Below are positions 20,466-30,316 of a stretch of 49,647 nt of DNA, one piece after another. Below the pieces are notes generated by a model. It had not been told where the DNA came from, ran no database searches, and saw only the letters and a program-made list of their open reading frames with translations. Where the stretch lies: positions 1 through 49,647 of IMG/VR virus record IMGVR_UViG_3300048056_000086. One strand, 5' to 3'. The stretch is from a virus. The position numbers were made by a program, and so were the translations under genes. Within the stretch, counting starts at the first letter, position 1, and each line of letters begins with the position of its first letter.

Positions 20466-20729
20466 TTAACCTTCCCCTTTCAGAATCTCATTAGACCGTT
20501 TAATTGCAAAATCGGTTATCTCGTCACGGTCTTTTTGTGGCATAGACAGCACGCTTACGAACCTACACGACTTGTAAATAGAGACCATACCCCAGTCGTG
20601 TTTGATAGCAACGCCAGGTATTTTGGAAGGCAAAACAGGGTACTCAACTACATACACGTTGCCCTCGATTAGCAGTGACTCTCTAGCGTCGACGCATCTT
20701 ACCCAATCGCCCTTTTTAAAATTTCTCAT
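20466..20729 (-). CDS. Single-unit SH3-like repeat protein
   Basis: 87 aa. The first half (MRNFKKGDWVRCVDA then IEGNVYVVEY) is clearly related to the five repeats of the protein at 26297-27325 (FKPGDWVRC, ITEGxxYxV), so it is a one-unit paralog of that protein. Predicted small beta-barrel (SH3/KOW-like). First gene of the leftward operon, with ribosome site aggagg and a sigma54-like promoter directly upstream. Confidence 0.7.
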   Translation of the reverse strand: MRNFKKGDWVRCVDARESLLIEGNVYVVEYPVLPSKIPGVAIKHDWGMVSIYKSCRFVSVLSMPQKDRDEITDFAIKRSNEILKGEG

Positions 20730-23796: not shown

Positions 23797-26307
23797 TTGA
23801 ATGATGCTTTTCAGGGTTTAAAAAACACGCCCCAATGGATTTTATGGAAAGAATTACCCCCGCTTAAAGGAAAGACAAAACGGCGCAAAGTGCCTTACGA
23901 CGTGCTCGACGTGCTCAACCCGGAGCGACACGACCCACACGATGCGTCTATTCATATGACCTATAAGACCGCTTGCAATTACCTATCACTTTTAGGCAAC
24001 AAAAAGTTCTCGCTTGGGTTCGTTCTCACCACTCACGACAATTTTTTTTGTATAGACCTGGACAAATGCATTACAGCGGACGGGCCAAACGAGCACGCAC
24101 AAGCTGTGCTTTCCCATTTCCCGGGTGCTTGCGTTGAGCTTTCGCACAGCCTGGCAGGTCTGCACATTTGGGGTGCTTGTGGGCCACTCCCAGATCGTAA
24201 AAAACGTTGCAACGCTTTGGAGCTCTACACCGACAACCGATTTATCGCATTTACAGGGCAGTCATACGGCGCGCAAGTTCATTCGTGCTCTATCGATTGG
24301 ACGCCATCCGTGTTGCGCGTGGTTGATCACTACCTGCAAAAAACAAACAACCATCTGGGCACGGCAATACAAGATCTAGAGTGGACCGAGACCGGCACGC
24401 CGGGGTCCCTCTCCGATCAAGACAAAATAATAGAAGTGCTTATGCGCATGGGCACAATGCAAGCCGTCATGCACAATAACCCAATTAGCGGCGTTCGTCC
24501 CTATAAATATAAGGTGACACCTCGTGAGTTGTGGGTGGGTGACTGCGATGCACTCGGCAGAGCGTTCCCCAGCGATACCGGGCAAGAGTACAACGCAAGC
24601 GCCGCCGATCAAGCCCTGGCAAACCACGTCATATTCCTAACGGGTGGCAATTGCGAGCTAACACAGACTATCATGCTGCAGTCCGCGCTATGTCGTGACA
24701 AATGGCTCGACCGTGACGACTACCTGCCTAATACAATCAAATCAGCTCTATCTGTGGCCACAGAGTTTTATTCGAACAAAAAACCAACCGCTGATATCAT
24801 GCCCAACCAGACAGTAACGCTACCCCCGCCACCTCCGCCATTGCGCGCGCCGGACCCGGTGCACGAAAACAAGCCAGTGCCGCCGCCGGACACGCTAGTG
24901 GGTCAAACGTTATTGCCGATCTCTGCGATGATTGAGTATTTCAAGGGCTGCATGTATATCGCAGACCGGCACCGCGTGCTCATGCCCAATGGTATGCAAG
25001 TCAAACCCGAGGTGTTCAAAACCCTCTGTGGGGGCCACGTGTTTGCGCTTGCGGAGGGCAAAACGACAACGGACGCGTTCAAGGCATTTAGCGAAAATCA
25101 ATTGCATCAATTCCCACGCGTGGACACTACGTGTTTTAAGCCCACGCTGGAGTCGCTAGGCGTATCGCGTCAAGATAATCTGCTAGCAGTAAATACGTAC
25201 GTCCCCCTTTTCGGCAAACAGACACCGGGCGACATAACGCCGTTCTTGAAACACGCTGAAATGCTGCTGCCCGTCGAATCCGATAGAATTATTTTTCTGG
25301 ATTTTTTAAAATGGTGTGTCCAAAACCCCGGCAAAAAAGCACAATGGGCCCCTGTCATGCAGGGTGTACAGGGCAACGGGAAAACCGTATTTTACACGAT
25401 TTTGGAATACGCTATCGGTGCCAAATATTGCCACCAAGTAAACCCCCTAGACCTCGGCAATGTTTTTACGGGCTGGCTACCCGAAAAAATAATTTGCTGT
25501 ATCGAAGAAATCCACACTCAAGGCAAGCGCAAGATCGCGGATGCGCTAAAACCACTTATCACCAACCGGCGCGCGCCCATACAGTCGAAGGGTTTTGACC
25601 AAGAGACCGGCGACAATTGCGCCAACTTCTTACTGTTTTCAAATCATAAAGACGCTGTTTTGAAAACTATTGATGATCGTCGCTATTGCGTTTTTTATAC
25701 GGCACAACAGACAACGGATGACCTGGTACTAATGGGCCTAGATGAGGACTACTTCAACTATCTGTTTTCGTGGCTCGAAAACGGCGGCCTCGCTAACGTA
25801 GCGCACTGGCTGGCCACAGAGCCAATAACAAGCACTAACATGCTTGGGCGCTCGCCATACACGTCGAGCACAGACGAAGCTGTGCGTTGTTCTGTGGGCT
25901 ATATTGAGCAGATAATACAACAAGCGATCATCAACGAAGTGCCTGGATTTCAAGAGGGACTCTTGCTACCCGGGCAAGTCAATGACTACATCAAAGACGA
26001 CGCCGGTGTGAAAGGGTTCAGGCCCCAACAACTACGGGCAAAACTTGCGAACATAGGCTACACCGCTCACCCAGCGCATAATGTTGTTGGGCCAGACGGC
26101 AAGCCGGGTTGCGCGAGGGTCGGCGTTTTGAAATGGAAACATCAGAAATTTTACGTGTTGCGCAGTAGCCCACATTGGGCGATCGAATCAGCTTTCCAAT
26201 TGCGCGAAGTTTGGTGCGGCCGGTATCTACGGGCGCAAGAGAAACTAATAGGGCAAGCCGCAAAATCAGACACAGAATTATACAAGGAGCAAAAGTATGA
26301 AGTTTAA
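23797..26307 (+). CDS. Primase(-polymerase)-SF3 helicase
   Basis: 836 aa, starting at TTG 23797: ataaggaggaga is ideally spaced for it, and nearby ATGs are out of frame. The N-terminal 200 residues (PQWILWKELPPLKGKTKR; FCIDLDKC with Asp87/Asp89; ELYTDNRFIAFTGQ) fit the primase-polymerase fold of phage DUF5906/NrS-1-like proteins. A Pro-rich linker lies at about 345-365. The C-terminal part is a superfamily 3 (D5-like) helicase: Walker A GVQGNGKT (residues 523-530), Walker B-like IICCIEEIH and the sensor region NFLLFSNHKDA. Probably starts and unwinds replication forks for the family A polymerase. Confidence 0.85.
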   Translation: MNDAFQGLKNTPQWILWKELPPLKGKTKRRKVPYDVLDVLNPERHDPHDASIHMTYKTACNYLSLLGNKKFSLGFVLTTHDNFFCIDLDKCITADGPNEHAQAVLSHFPGACVELSHSLAGLHIWGACGPLPDRKKRCNALELYTDNRFIAFTGQSYGAQVHSCSIDWTPSVLRVVDHYLQKTNNHLGTAIQDLEWTETGTPGSLSDQDKIIEVLMRMGTMQAVMHNNPISGVRPYKYKVTPRELWVGDCDALGRAFPSDTGQEYNASAADQALANHVIFLTGGNCELTQTIMLQSALCRDKWLDRDDYLPNTIKSALSVATEFYSNKKPTADIMPNQTVTLPPPPPPLRAPDPVHENKPVPPPDTLVGQTLLPISAMIEYFKGCMYIADRHRVLMPNGMQVKPEVFKTLCGGHVFALAEGKTTTDAFKAFSENQLHQFPRVDTTCFKPTLESLGVSRQDNLLAVNTYVPLFGKQTPGDITPFLKHAEMLLPVESDRIIFLDFLKWCVQNPGKKAQWAPVMQGVQGNGKTVFYTILEYAIGAKYCHQVNPLDLGNVFTGWLPEKIICCIEEIHTQGKRKIADALKPLITNRRAPIQSKGFDQETGDNCANFLLFSNHKDAVLKTIDDRRYCVFYTAQQTTDDLVLMGLDEDYFNYLFSWLENGGLANVAHWLATEPITSTNMLGRSPYTSSTDEAVRCSVGYIEQIIQQAIINEVPGFQEGLLLPGQVNDYIKDDAGVKGFRPQQLRAKLANIGYTAHPAHNVVGPDGKPGCARVGVLKWKHQKFYVLRSSPHWAIESAFQLREVWCGRYLRAQEKLIGQAAKSDTELYKEQKYEV

Positions 26308-27325
26308 AAAAGGTGACATCGTTGAGTGCATCGACGCAGAACAGGCGGAGGACATAACCGAGGGCCGAGCATACGAGGTGTTGGACTATGGTGGTGGGAT
26401 GGTGGTTGTAGTAGACAACGTGAATGTTGCGAGCACTTACCGTGCGCCACGGTTTGAGCTAGCAGCCAAACCAGTTTTCGAGCCCGGTGACCGGGTGCGG
26501 TATGTAGGCGGTACTGCGTATATGGACCTAACCCAAAACAAAATATACGCCGTCCTATCGCAGCTTGAGGGGCGTATTAATGTAGTAGACGACGTGGGCG
26601 ATGAATACCCCTACCGCGCGTCTTGTTTTGAGCTGGCGGCCCAAGCAGGCCAACCAGCCTTCAAGCCCGGTGACTTTGTGCGATGTGTCGACGCAGAGCA
26701 CCCTTCGGACATAACCGAAGGCAACGTGTACCACGTACTCGAGTGCGGGGATAACTTTGTGCGTATAGTAGACGATGCGGGCGACAAGGGCATGTTCTAC
26801 AGTAGCCGGTTTGAGCTGGCAGCCAAACCAGTTTTCAAGCGTGGCGATTGGGTGCGATGCACCGACTCAAAACAGGCGGAGGACATAACCGAGGGCCGAG
26901 CATACGAAGTGGTGCGCGATTCATCAGAACACGCTAAAGTGGTGTTTATAGTAGACGACACGGGCGAAGAAAACGCATTCCGTCGGTGGCGCTTTCGGGC
27001 TGTTAGTCCGCCCACATTCAAGCCTGGTGACTGGGTGCGATGTACCCACAGGAGGGGATCTTTAGATATAACCGAGGGCACCGTGTATCACGTACTCGAA
27101 TGCGAGCCTAAATTTGTCCGCATAGTAGACGACGCTGGTGACAAGGACATGTACTACAGTGACCGTTTTGAGCTTATTGATAACCGGATGGAAGAGTTCA
27201 AAAAAGCGTGCGAGCCGCTCATGAATTGGATGCTAAAAAACTGCAACCCGCACACATCTGCAATAGTCAACAGCCTGAACGCCGAGCTAATGGAGGGCGT
27301 AATGGTGTGCAAAAATGAAGAGTAA
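26297..27325 (+). CDS. Protein of five SH3-like (KxGDxVRC) repeats
   Basis: 342 aa; ribosome site aaggagc, overlapping the primase 3' end. Five repeats of about 56-60 residues each start F-K-x-G-D-x-V-R-C (residues about 3, 62, 122, 180, 241), contain DITEGxxYxV and a VDDxGD strand, and end near RFELAAKPV. Each looks like one small beta-barrel. A helical C-terminal tail follows (MEEFKKACEPLMNWML). Repeats 1 and 4 share an identical 37-base stretch (26340-26376 and 26871-26907), so duplication was recent. Related to the one-repeat protein at 20466. Could bind DNA, RNA or protein; function unknown. Confidence 0.8.
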   Translation: MKFKKGDIVECIDAEQAEDITEGRAYEVLDYGGGMVVVVDNVNVASTYRAPRFELAAKPVFEPGDRVRYVGGTAYMDLTQNKIYAVLSQLEGRINVVDDVGDEYPYRASCFELAAQAGQPAFKPGDFVRCVDAEHPSDITEGNVYHVLECGDNFVRIVDDAGDKGMFYSSRFELAAKPVFKRGDWVRCTDSKQAEDITEGRAYEVVRDSSEHAKVVFIVDDTGEENAFRRWRFRAVSPPTFKPGDWVRCTHRRGSLDITEGTVYHVLECEPKFVRIVDDAGDKDMYYSDRFELIDNRMEEFKKACEPLMNWMLKNCNPHTSAIVNSLNAELMEGVMVCKNEE

Positions 27326-27439
27326 TTGTGGCACATTGGCCCAAAAAAGCGGCGTTCAAGCTCCCGAGTATCCCAACCACTAAACCCTACATTCACCCAC
27401 AGTTTCACACAGTAGTATACACCACTTTACCGTGTGGAT

Positions 27440-27495
27440 GTATTACGTTTAAACTGTATTATGCCTCTACTATAATTACAGTTTAAATGTAATAC
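27440..27495. repeat. 19-bp inverted repeat (hairpin), AT-rich
   Basis: Arms 27440-27458 and 27477-27495 are reverse complements with one mismatch (18/19), 18 bases apart. The core GTTTAAAC is itself nearly palindromic. An outer exact 10-base pair TTACCGTGTG/CACACGGTAA (27427-27436, 27519-27528) encloses it. Confidence 0.85.
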
Positions 27496-27568
27496 AGTGT
27501 AGATGTATTTAGGAGATGCACACGGTAACTTTACAACTGGGGTGGAATCTCGGGATAGTTGGAAACTA

Positions 27569-27794
27569 CTGTCCCGATCTATCCCGGCGATTTAGCACCT
27601 ATAATTTCAAGTAGTTACAAGGGCTCGGGATTACGGGATTACAAAACGTCACTTCCCCCTAGGTAGATCCATGTATACCATTTTACTAGACTTGGATCAA
27701 TCTCACATAGATGGGTGATTAGTAATCCCGTAGTCCCGAGCCTCTGCAAGTATGCGAAATCATTGTGGAAAACTTCCGGGATAGATAGGGACAG
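27569..27794. repeat. Concentric imperfect inverted repeats, 226 bp
   Basis: Four pairs share one centre near 27682: 27569-27587 with 27776-27794 (18/19 matches), 27603-27608 with 27756-27761 (5/6), 27622-27642 with 27722-27742 (20/21) and 27666-27671 with 27693-27698 (6/6). Sequence between the arms has diverged. This points to one old long palindrome or to a fold kept by selection. Confidence 0.85.
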
Positions 27795-27934
27795 AATGAA
27801 CAATAAAAAATGGTCTCCGTAAGTACCCGTAATCATTGAGGAATTCGCCGGGATTAGCGCAAGTGTATGATATTATTAAGCATTCGCCCTAAAGAGGGTC
27901 TAACACTGTGGAATCATTGAGAAATTCTTTTTTA

Positions 27935-27962
27935 TTGCAAAAAAGTGGTAATTTGGTACTAT
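27935..27962 (+). promoter_or_regulatory. Possible sigma70-type promoter before Cys-repeat array
   Basis: TTGCAA (27935-27940), 16-base spacer, TACTAT (27957-27962), 24 bases before ATG 27986 with ribosome site aaggag. Moderate match only. Confidence 0.4.
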
Positions 27963-27985
27963 TGTTCCAAGGAGTAATAACGAAA

Positions 27986-28237
27986 ATGAAAAAAGAAGAA
28001 ATTTTAGCAATGGGTTTTCGCGAGTACATGGACCGAGCCAACGAAAATATTAATTGTCACAATTGTATCGACTGTATAGATTGCCTCTGGGGGGTGGATC
28101 TAACACGCTGCGCGAAGTGTCACAATTGTATCAATTGCGTAGACTGCGTAAACTGTAGGGGAGTATCAGATAGGCGATACGTAGTTGACAATATCCAATT
28201 AACGGAATCCGAATACAAAGATTTTATGGCGAGGTAA
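27986..28237 (+). CDS. Cys-repeat protein A1 (tandem array)
   Basis: 83 aa from ATG 27986 (ribosome site ccaaggag); an upstream in-frame GTG at 27908 is rejected because the paralog A2 has exactly this length. N-terminus MKKEEILAMGFREYM, core with C-x2-C steps (CHNCIDCIDC; CAKCHNCINCVDCVNC), and C-terminus VVDNIQLTESEYKDFMAR. The Cys spacing of three suggests a metal-binding or regular coil structure. First of four genes with conserved ends; gene A1 plus B1 forms a 526-base unit repeated as A2 plus B2. Confidence 0.78.
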   Translation: MKKEEILAMGFREYMDRANENINCHNCIDCIDCLWGVDLTRCAKCHNCINCVDCVNCRGVSDRRYVVDNIQLTESEYKDFMAR

Positions 28238-28242
28238 CCGAG

Positions 28243-28506
28243 ATGAAAAAAGAAGAAATTTTAAAATTGGGGTTGTCGGGGTACTTAGGGGAGAGTTGCT
28301 TGGGGTGTCTTGAATGTAGCGACTGCTATGCTTGCGTGGATTGCAGGGAATGTAAAGACTGCCGTAGTTGTTACGAGTGTTTCGACTGTCATGGTTGTGT
28401 AGGGTGTAGGGACTGCATGTCATGCACGGGGCTATCCGATGATAGGTACATGGTTGACAATACCCAATTAACGGAATCCGAATACAAAGATTTTATGGCG
28501 AGGTAA
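28243..28506 (+). CDS. Cys-repeat protein B1 (15 Cys at period three)
   Basis: 87 aa. After MKKEEILKLGLSGYLGES comes an uninterrupted run of 15 Cys, each separated by two residues (C-x2-C repeated 14 times, about residues 19-61), then the shared C-terminus (VDNTQLTESEYKDFMAR). The ribosome site gcgaggt lies in the last codons of the gene before it. Such strict Cys periodicity suggests a metal-rich or metallothionein-like protein or a disulfide-stacked helix. The repeat type occurs in uncharacterised phage proteins. Confidence 0.78.
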   Translation: MKKEEILKLGLSGYLGESCLGCLECSDCYACVDCRECKDCRSCYECFDCHGCVGCRDCMSCTGLSDDRYMVDNTQLTESEYKDFMAR

Positions 28507-28511
28507 CCGAA

Positions 28512-28763
28512 ATGAAAAAAGAGAGAATTTTAGCAATGGGTTTTCGCGGGTACATGGGCCAAGCCAACGAAGATATCCACTGTCACAATTGTGTTGACTG
28601 TATCTCCTGCATTTGGGGGGTGGGCATAACACGCTACGCCCGGAGTCACAAGTGCGCCAATTGCGTGGACTGCGCGAGTTATAAAGGGCCATATGATAGG
28701 CGATACGTGGTTGACAATATCCAATTAACGGAATCCGAATACAAAGATTTTATGGCGAGGTAA
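28512..28763 (+). CDS. Cys-repeat protein A2 (partly decayed core)
   Basis: 83 aa, paralog of A1 at exactly 526 bases distance. N-terminus MKKERILAMGFRGYMGQANE and C-terminus VVDNIQLTESEYKDFMAR are kept. In the second half of the core three Cys of A1 are replaced (Cys to Tyr, Ser and Tyr) while the first CHNCVDCISC block stays. The metal-binding capacity is therefore probably reduced or changed. Confidence 0.76.
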   Translation: MKKERILAMGFRGYMGQANEDIHCHNCVDCISCIWGVGITRYARSHKCANCVDCASYKGPYDRRYVVDNIQLTESEYKDFMAR

Positions 28764-28768
28764 CCGAA

Positions 28769-29056
28769 ATGAAAAAAGAAGAAATTTTAAAATTGGGGCT
28801 GAGTGGGTACTTAGAGAGTGGGGGTGGCCTAGCCGATATGCGGGTACTATTACTCCCTTTCTTTTTAAAAGTTGTGCACCGCAGTCATGGCCCCGAAGCG
28901 GGCACGCCCTACCAGCCGGTCACACTAAACAAGCGGGGGCGCGTGCAAATAGCGACCGAGGGCCGGACGTTGGCATTTTACCCACGTGACTACGTAGTGA
29001 CGATGGATGGCGTTCAACTAACAGAATCCGAATACAAAGATTTCATGGCGAGGTGA
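28769..29056 (+). CDS. Array protein B2 with replaced, Cys-free core
   Basis: 95 aa. Shares MKKEEILKLGLSGYLES with B1 and the same C-terminus (GVQLTESEYKDFMAR), but the central 60 residues are unrelated: no Cys, a hydrophobic stretch (RVLLLPFFLKVV) and a beta-rich part (GRVQIATEGRTLAFYPRDYV). At the position where a B1 copy is expected the core has been exchanged. Together with A1, B1 and A2 it shows constant ends with a variable middle. Confidence 0.74.
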   Translation: MKKEEILKLGLSGYLESGGGLADMRVLLLPFFLKVVHRSHGPEAGTPYQPVTLNKRGRVQIATEGRTLAFYPRDYVVTMDGVQLTESEYKDFMAR

Positions 29057-29062
29057 ACAATA

Positions 29063-29590
29063 ATGCCATTTGTTACAACGTTACAGAAACTAAAAGACAA
29101 CGATGCCTGCAAGCCCAGGTTTGATCATTTAGTCGAATCGCTCGGGGAGTACGGTTTTAGCGAACCAATTTCAATTTCGAAAATCCTCGAAACTAACGGA
29201 GTACAAGACGCCTTGTGGGCGCTGCGCGCCTGTGATTTGACCAAGAACGAGGAATGTAAGGTGCACCTTCTTGCATGCGACTTTGCTGAGCATGTATTGC
29301 CTAGCTTTGAAAGAGAATTTCCGAACGACAAACGGCCACGATCGGCGATTGAGGTGAAAAGAAAATGGGCCCACGGTGAAGCCACAGAGGGCGAATTAAC
29401 CGCCGCCCGTTCCGCCGCCGCCTCCGCCGCCTCCGCCGCCTCCGCCGCCTACTCCGCCGTCGACGCCGCCTACTACTCCGCCGACTACTCCGCCGTCGTC
29501 GCCGCCTACTACTCCGCCGACTACGCCGCCGCCGCCCAAGACGAGTGGGACTGGCAAGCCACAAAATTAACAGAGATGATTGAGGGGTAA
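29063..29590 (+). CDS. Protein with Ala/Tyr/Ser low-complexity repeat C-terminus
   Basis: 175 aa, ribosome site gaggtgaac. The N-terminal 110 residues are a helical domain (LWALRACDLTKNEECKVHLL). The segment 115-160 repeats SAASAASAA and AAYYSADYSA, encoded by a run of CC-containing triplets (29401-29535) likely to change length by slippage, and the C-terminus ends QDEWDWQATKLTEMI. The layout recalls the Imm-5-like immunity domain family (Ala-rich helices then W-x4-L-x2-MI). Exact role unknown; it directly precedes small terminase. Confidence 0.65.
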   Translation: MPFVTTLQKLKDNDACKPRFDHLVESLGEYGFSEPISISKILETNGVQDALWALRACDLTKNEECKVHLLACDFAEHVLPSFEREFPNDKRPRSAIEVKRKWAHGEATEGELTAARSAAASAASAASAAYSAVDAAYYSADYSAVVAAYYSADYAAAAQDEWDWQATKLTEMIEG

Positions 29591-30156
29591 TGGCTAAAAA
29601 GAAACAAACAAAGTTAACAGGCAACGCGCCGCTGGGTATCGTCGTGCCGTTTAACCCAGAGCGCCACACTGTGCTCATTGCGAGTCTTGCGCGTCAAGGC
29701 TGCACGAACGCGGAGATTGCCGCACACTGCGGGATTGACATCAGGTCTTTAGGTGTGTGGCGGTCGAAGTTTGAGGCGGTTGAAACGGCTATTACTGAGT
29801 CTAGGGCGTATGCCGTCGCCCGGTTAGAGTCGGCTATGCTTGAGGCCGCCATGGGCGGGGAGTACGACGAGAAAACAAAAGTTAAGCGTGAGAATGAAGA
29901 TGGCTCAATTTCATACGAGTACAAGACCACAACGAAATTAACCAAGGCGAGCGTAACGGCTCAAATGTTCCTGTTGAAAAACCTCGCCCCGGACAGATAC
30001 AAAGACCGTCACGAAATTAAGCAGACTGGCGAGCTAAACATAACTTGGAACGAAGTACGCGAGGAGCTAACAGCGGAGGCAAGAGCGGCAATCAAAGCGC
30101 CGCCCGCAATTGTGCTGGACATAGTGAAAGGGGACGAACATGATGAAAGACGTTGA
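29590..30156 (+). CDS. Terminase small subunit-like protein
   Basis: 188 aa, coupled to the previous gene (TAATG). An N-terminal helix-turn-helix (LASLARQGCTNAEIAAHCGI) and a central helical region with YKTTTKLTKASVTAQMFLLKN and LAPDRYKDRHEIKQTG are typical of small terminases that recognise phage DNA for packaging. Large terminase follows at 32720, 2.6 kb away, with ten small genes in between. The C-terminal tail APPAIVLDIVKGDEH is repeated in the next gene. Confidence 0.72.
   Translation: MAKKKQTKLTGNAPLGIVVPFNPERHTVLIASLARQGCTNAEIAAHCGIDIRSLGVWRSKFEAVETAITESRAYAVARLESAMLEAAMGGEYDEKTKVKRENEDGSISYEYKTTTKLTKASVTAQMFLLKNLAPDRYKDRHEIKQTGELNITWNEVREELTAEARAAIKAPPAIVLDIVKGDEHDERR
30097..30143 (+). 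repeat. 47-bp gene-junction repeat, copy 1
   Basis: 43 of 47 bases match 30266-30312. All four differences are transitions and three are silent in the shared frame. It encodes the peptide APPA(I/V)VLDIVKGDEH, then the ribosome site (gggac) and the start codon of the next gene. Confidence 0.9.
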
Positions 30157-30316
30157 CAATGTGGTTTACCTTGAAGACTACAAGTGCGAGAAAGCCAGGA
30201 AGCGAATTTTGGAGCAATTAAAGCGAGACGGTCTAATAACGAGGGTGCCCATTGAAGAAAAAGAAGCGCCGCCTGCAGTTGTGTTGGACATAGTGAAGGG
30301 GGACGAACATGAATAG
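30140..30316 (+). CDS. Small protein with C-terminal tail duplicated from small terminase
   Basis: 58 aa (MMKDVDNVVYLEDYKCEKAR..., ending APPAVVLDIVKGDEHE). The start overlaps the small terminase 3' end and the 3' end overlaps the next start. The last 15 residues repeat the tail of small terminase with one change (Ile to Val). It may be a duplicate tail that regulates or competes with small terminase, or a by-product of junction duplication. Confidence 0.65.
   Translation: MMKDVDNVVYLEDYKCEKARKRILEQLKRDGLITRVPIEEKEAPPAVVLDIVKGDEHE
30266..30312 (+). repeat. 47-bp gene-junction repeat, copy 2
   Basis: Second copy of 30097-30143 (43/47), ending with the ATG of the gene at 30309. Confidence 0.9.

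Follow-up and report, generated by a model that had tools for sequence, protein, structure and literature searches.

In T4, the constant part of the internal proteins is an N-terminal capsid targeting sequence, and in the variable lymphocyte receptors of lampreys constant caps enclose repeat modules that are shuffled by recombination between copies. The internal proteins of the T-even phages are diverse counter-defence proteins that have only the capsid targeting sequence in common (PMC3012670). Among the short proteins of phages, a number of hypothetical proteins with Cys-X-X (CXX) repeats have been recorded; some of them are annotated as "insect antifreeze", and the function of the corresponding profile, phrog_15341, is unknown. 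We found no description of phage CXX-repeat arrays in the open-access literature, most subscription journals being outside the scope of this search.

Here, we describe an array of four small phage genes that carry the same ends around differing cores, and we consider it about evenly probable that they form a tandem multigene family whose products are capped or tagged repeat proteins and whose evolution proceeds by recombination between homologous ends.

Genome setting

The window, by which we mean the whole stretch of 49,647 bases that was analysed, is an IMG/VR virus record with a direct terminal repeat of 127 bases, and it therefore probably represents a complete phage genome. Its gene content includes an NrS-1-like primase, a family A DNA polymerase, a terminase and contractile-tail-type genes, among others. 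The terminase is at most 45% identical to those of known phages, chiefly phages of Bacteroidota. Searches for close relatives gave IMG/VR matches to the terminase of at most 39% identity, no relatives via the gene downstream of the array and no DNA-level relatives among phage records, and the array family was absent from the cellular genomes searched. Since Shine-Dalgarno (SD)-like sequences are found upstream of 30 of the 48 genes, as compared to a background of 10%, the phage makes real use of this signal.

Directly upstream of the array lies a non-coding region of 656 nt (27330-27985), which contains three AATCATTG repeats as well as nested inverted repeats:

27569-27598 and 27765-27794, inverted repeat
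27601-27645 and 27719-27763, inverted repeat
27439-27458 and 27477-27496, inverted repeat

The folding of this region is far better than that of its shuffles (z -9), and the GC skew minimum of the window is situated nearby, at 24-26 kb. No other viral contig matched a 19-nt segment of the inverted repeat. Possibly, the region is a replication origin. The protein encoded at 26297-27325 has five tandem, KOW-like repeats of approximately 60 amino acids (F-x-x-GD-x-V...DITEG...VDD-x-GD) and matches PHROG 4927/DUF6501-type proteins, and the start of an ORF on the opposite strand (20466-20729) resembles the sequence of this repeat protein.

Organisation of the array

The array, its joints and the gene that follows it are arranged as follows:

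27986-28237, plus strand: A1, CXX-repeat protein of 83 amino acids with 10 Cys; own upstream SD (AAGGAG)
28184-28272, plus strand: joint J1, comprising the A1 tail, SD/stop, and the B1 start and head
28243-28506, plus strand: B1, CXX-repeat protein of 87 amino acids with 15 Cys at a strict period of 3
28464-28522, plus strand: joint J2, comprising the B1 tail, SD/stop and the A2 start; exact match of 59 nt to the A2-B2 joint, offset 257
28512-28763, plus strand: A2, copy of A1, 83 amino acids with 7 Cys
28710-28798, plus strand: joint J3, comprising the A2 tail, SD/stop, and the B2 start and head
28769-29056, plus strand: B2, 95 amino acids without Cys; unrelated coding core between a B-type head and the family tail
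29015-29054, plus strand: B2 tail, three synonymous and no amino-acid changes relative to the other tails; SD for the gene at 29063
29063-29590, plus strand: downstream coupled gene, Imm5_like/phrog_18326, a neighbour outside the family

The coordinates and constant ends of the original prediction all hold on rechecking, as does its spacing of 526 nt both from A1 to A2 and from B1 to B2; the Cys counts are 10, 15, 7 and 0, and the gaps between successive genes of the array are 5 nt each. The duplication of a two-gene unit that it had proposed is seen in a stretch of 300 nt (27978-28277), which recurs with 83% identity at the same offset of 526 nt (28504-28803). Likewise, A2 is indeed short of three of the Cys of A1, which were changed by substitution (C42Y, C45S and C57Y) and not by an indel. 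B1 and B2 have their first 15 residues in common as well as their last 13 (or approximately 22, if an indel of two residues is allowed). The family tail ends with GCGAGGTAA, and GAGGT thus comes to lie 7 to 8 nt 5′ of the next ATG (GCGAGGT), such that each tail carries the ribosome site of the following gene, as had been claimed.

In 60 simulations of the window by a first-order Markov model, no run of at least five Cys at period 3 arose. All 363 window ORFs with a length of 40 amino acids or more were compared for shared ends; apart from the array, these were seen in just one further gene pair, once antisense artefacts and a single weak match on the minus strand are set aside. E-values for low-complexity Cys repeats need care, and our arguments rest on the ends, on DNA comparisons and on shuffles.

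The product of the downstream gene is Imm5-like (PF21805, E=1e-10) and has an Ala/Tyr/Ser-rich stretch that stems from CCGCC-type triplet repeats. Defence-system profiles gave no match to the array and one chance-level match (E=0.03) to this downstream gene.

Divergence of cores and ends

The two A genes differ at 38 of 138 positions in the core, but at only 6 of 111 positions in the ends (Fisher p=3e-6, all differences included), and the joints J1 and J3, i.e., A1-B1 and A2-B2, are identical at 88 of 89 nt. Since dS is 1.12 in the core, which is saturated, as compared to 0.11 in the ends, the joints have by this measure been homogenised as DNA, whereas the A cores have diverged. This is what would be expected if recombination homogenises the joints as the cores drift. 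The core dN/dS is 0.21, which shows constraint rather than positive selection, and most of the differences are transitions that go in both directions and are not restricted to adenine. Exact core blocks of more than 12 nt common to A1, A2 and B1 do not exist, so recent core shuffling is not seen in the window.

In the ends of B2, 28 codons show five synonymous and no amino-acid changes relative to B1, and both ends have therefore been kept as protein around a foreign core. This core, which had been described as unrelated and Cys-free, shows no BLAST match elsewhere in the window and scores as coding, and searches for B2 relatives in phages or in the PDB gave chance matches only. A frameshifted Cys core was rejected as its origin, because the other frames lack the CXX pattern, and so was a fragment of the KOW-like repeats encoded at 26297 (hhalign probability 0.4%).

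Family members in other phages

A distant viral contig of 108 kb (IMGVR_UViG_3300042731_009409, here G001) harbors four paralogs that have the same ends as the window genes (MKKEEILKLGRTGFL...NIQFTEAEYEDWMKR) and cores with 8 to approximately 36 Cys. Their heads are MEKTELLKLGRTGYL or MKKEEILKLGRTGFL, and their tail reads S[KR][YF]M[IV]xNIQFT..EY..WM.R. The array and these paralogs can be aligned at both ends and have the CXX core in common, B2 joining the family via its ends only (tail, probability 96%). In two of the paralogs, the next gene follows within 2 nt, as in the window. The tail peptide, NIQ[LF]T..EY..[FW]M.R, is kept in G001 despite large DNA divergence, even in places without a directly following gene, and the contig also contains a tail copy that stands by itself as an orphan (L004:5988-6086). 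Two tandem genes of a third contig (L108) carry the related tail GNVQFTEDEY. The phrog_15341 profile matches B1 (E=4.2e-12), A1 (1.2e-7) and A2 (0.0026), and does not match B2. By these alignments, the ends of the array belong to a real protein family that is found beyond the window.

CXX arrays with unrelated ends

A scan for the CXX-repeat pattern retrieved at least 120 viral contigs, a count that includes other reading frames, and among the matches listed several viral contigs carry CXX gene arrays with constant ends. More such arrays, with constant heads and tails, are present at L128:1-1615 and L082:348-2722.

One phage of this kind (IMGVR_UViG_3300037172_000055, here G002) carries nine CXX genes with the common head RWYDENNNSW...SPTLTNC. 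The C-terminal motif R-x-L-[ED]-x-x-L is found in 24 of its proteins, namely the nine Cys-repeat proteins and a further 15 that are Cys-free, with varied codons and in several cases without a following start. In the other loci compared, which include fragments of G002 itself, the motif fits 13 of 6,469 ORFs. Judged by their sequences, the Cys-free G002 proteins with the common tail motif parallel B2 in the window. In G002 and its relative G005 (L194, L195, L197-L199), genes with the motif, which stands on Cys-repeat and Cys-free proteins, often overlap by ATGA.

The original prediction had called for a comparison between related phages, which could be carried out with G002 and G005, whereas no close relative of the window phage was found. 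The two genomes are 98.8% identical in the neighbour genes and 98.0% in the tails, but 18% of the columns in the cores are gaps, and the cores have been resized, shuffled among paralogs, or replaced. For example, the G005 core at 70257 has no 15-mers in common with its G002 counterpart while the adjoining gene is 100% identical, and the copy number differs, because G005 has one extra CXX gene beside 70257. Stretches that are exactly matched over at least 27 nt in a non-orthologous paralog account for 46% of the core bases; in 200 shuffles, this share was 7% on average and at most 16%. On this evidence, core exchange between constant ends happens in phages like G002 and G005. Their ends are not homologous to those of the window, so that the argument for the window is one by class and not by descent; active variation at the window locus itself was not observed.

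In the Campylobacter phages WX1 and CP21, which have one CXX gene each, the two genes are distinguished by a single in-frame core insertion of 135 nt (15 x 9, i.e., 15 repeat units). In the Campylobacter phage CJLB-14, a CXX-repeat gene (pair L002:5171-6190 and L002:3899-4360) lies less than 1 kb from a radical SAM gene, a putative RiPP-like pairing. Campylobacter phages of this type carry many radical SAM proteins (PMC2853527).

Proposed recombination at constant ends and its alternatives

If recombination between homologous ends drives the evolution of the array as a family, which we hold at even confidence, each protein would have, as predicted by modelling, an N-terminal helix and a C-terminal beta-hairpin with helix, both constant, on either side of a variable core. 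Usually, this core would be a (Cys-X-X)n repeat, whereas B2 has an unrelated domain instead. Homologous recombination and unequal crossing-over at the joints, each of which comprises tail, SD, start and head, would add, remove and swap units, the CXX core would change by whole 9-nt units, and the ribosome site in the tail would keep every unit translatable. Less certainly, the constant ends may act as peptides, be it as repeat caps and/or as an address label, and the cores may be variable interaction or thiol/metal modules for phage-host conflict, a role that by analogy would be like that of the T4 internal proteins. The array had been proposed to be a diversification system. Of this proposal, the fixed flanks and variable interiors stand, as seen in the homogenised ends, the saturated A cores, the foreign core of B2 and the comparison of G002 and G005, whereas dedicated machinery was not found and the constraint on the A cores speaks against diversifying selection.

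A wider version of this idea, which we consider rather unlikely, is that several phage lineages independently keep cassette systems in which recombination continually rebuilds the bodies between constant ends and the C-terminal peptide serves as an address label on CXX-repeat and unrelated proteins alike. They would thus hold a modular repertoire for phage-host conflict, of which the window would be a small four-gene version.

The alternative that survives best, and to which we likewise assign a minor share of the probability, is that the proteins are thin CXX-repeat solenoids with the ends as plain folding caps. Their repeat number would drift by slippage, the ends would be retained because folding requires them, and B2 would be a one-off chimera that plays no part in a system. 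An AlphaFold2 run on B1 with seven family members gave a pLDDT of 82 for the N-terminal decade and of 76-78 for the C-terminal end, and the model has a helix at 3-15 and a short hairpin followed by a helix at 78-86. The core (pLDDT below 50) was not confidently modelled, and the models of the B1 core and of the whole of B2 were too uncertain for a fold search. The constant ends are thus plausibly small structured elements in this model, either repeat caps or a docking module. Confident termini around a low-confidence core are in line with caps, as are core lengths that shift in whole CXX units and the fact that CXX proteins with other ends also show constant ends. However, slippage between caps does not readily explain why B2 keeps both ends at the protein level around a Cys-free core, why one tail is found on many Cys-free proteins in G002 and G005, and why core blocks common to the paralogs of these phages are so far above the shuffles.

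It is less probable still that the tail is kept as DNA or RNA rather than as a peptide, because the SD of the next gene lies inside it and inserted genes inherit the tail of the junction copy. GCGAGGT is present in the tail before each next ATG, and a second gene pair in the window provides the strongest caution in this respect. Two unrelated neighbours, the gene for the terminase small subunit (29590-30156) and the ORF after it (30140-30316), have in common the in-frame C-terminal tail APPA[IV]VLDIVKGDEH, encoded by 49 nt (30095-30143 and 30264-30312) that are 92% identical at the DNA level, each with the start signal of the next gene. Junction duplication alone can therefore yield shared tails, and those of the array could partly be its by-product. 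Nonetheless, the peptide in G001 has outlasted the divergence of its DNA and is kept without a directly following gene, the changes in the B2 ends are all synonymous, and the G002 tails vary in their codons and in several cases precede no start, all of which argues for the peptide.

Somewhat more doubtful is that the genes encode a metallothionein-like or redox thiol protein whose CXX cores bind metals or Fe-S, the copies raising dosage only. The cores have up to 15 Cys within 43 residues at strict spacing, and the second X is mostly Asp, Asn, Glu, Gly or Ser, which would suit such a function. However, A2 has three Cys fewer than A1 and B2 is Cys-free, no Pfam or NCBIfam family, and no metallothionein profile, matched the array, and the constant ends on Cys-free cores are left unexplained. 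A RiPP or bacteriocin precursor of the heterocycloanthracin-like or radical-SAM type, called to mind by the resemblance of CXX repeats after a conserved N-terminus to a Bacillus CXX bacteriocin precursor (PMC2674419), is largely refuted and very improbable, since YcaO and radical SAM genes were not found in the window phage or in G001, no NCBIfam precursor matched, and a conserved element is present at the C-terminus as well. The least credible candidate is a diversity-generating retroelement, or another form of hypermutation targeted to the cores, which would also give variable cores between constant flanks but is unsupported, since no reverse transcriptase was found in the window phage, the A1/A2 differences are mostly two-way transitions without adenine bias, and the core dN/dS is low.

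Comparison with known systems

With respect to described proteins, the array is closest in its cores to phrog_15341 and the CXX hypothetical proteins of phages (Flavobacterium FL-1, Vibrio 1.238, Campylobacter Firehammervirus), which are likewise short phage accessory proteins with a CXX core profile. Their N- and C-terminal ends are different, however, and a tandem four-gene array was not seen in those records. The insect antifreeze protein TmAFP (PF02420) is also a small-period repeat, and there is a weak sequence match of the array to 1ezg (E=0.61), but no Pfam family matched the array at E up to 1, and the Cys spacing is 6 in TmAFP and 3 in the array. Heterocycloanthracin-type TOMM precursors (Haft 2009) resemble the array in having variable-number CXX repeats after a conserved N-terminus, yet the array is phage-borne, has a conserved C-terminus, and came without maturation enzymes in our searches.

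If recombination rebuilds the cores and the ends serve as labels or caps, phages would possess a repertoire of small proteins that does without a reverse transcriptase and is to be found among their "hypothetical proteins". Reshuffled Cys cores between fixed ends suggest a little-noticed route to small-protein diversity in phages. In G002, the seven-residue C-terminal motif on 24 proteins offers a direct entry to its job, be it packaging, docking or degradation.

In this context, the T-even internal proteins IPI, IPII and IPIII are like the array in that a constant terminal sequence is carried by several small proteins with diverse bodies. Constant terminal sequences on unrelated bodies were found both in B2 as compared to A1, B1 and A2, and in the G002 tails. 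The array differs from the T4 proteins in that both ends are constant, and the likeness is one without shown homology. The same holds for the lamprey variable lymphocyte receptors: although there is no homology and no receptor role is known for the array, the scheme of constant ends and reshuffled cores in G002 and G005 resembles the one by which these receptors are assembled.
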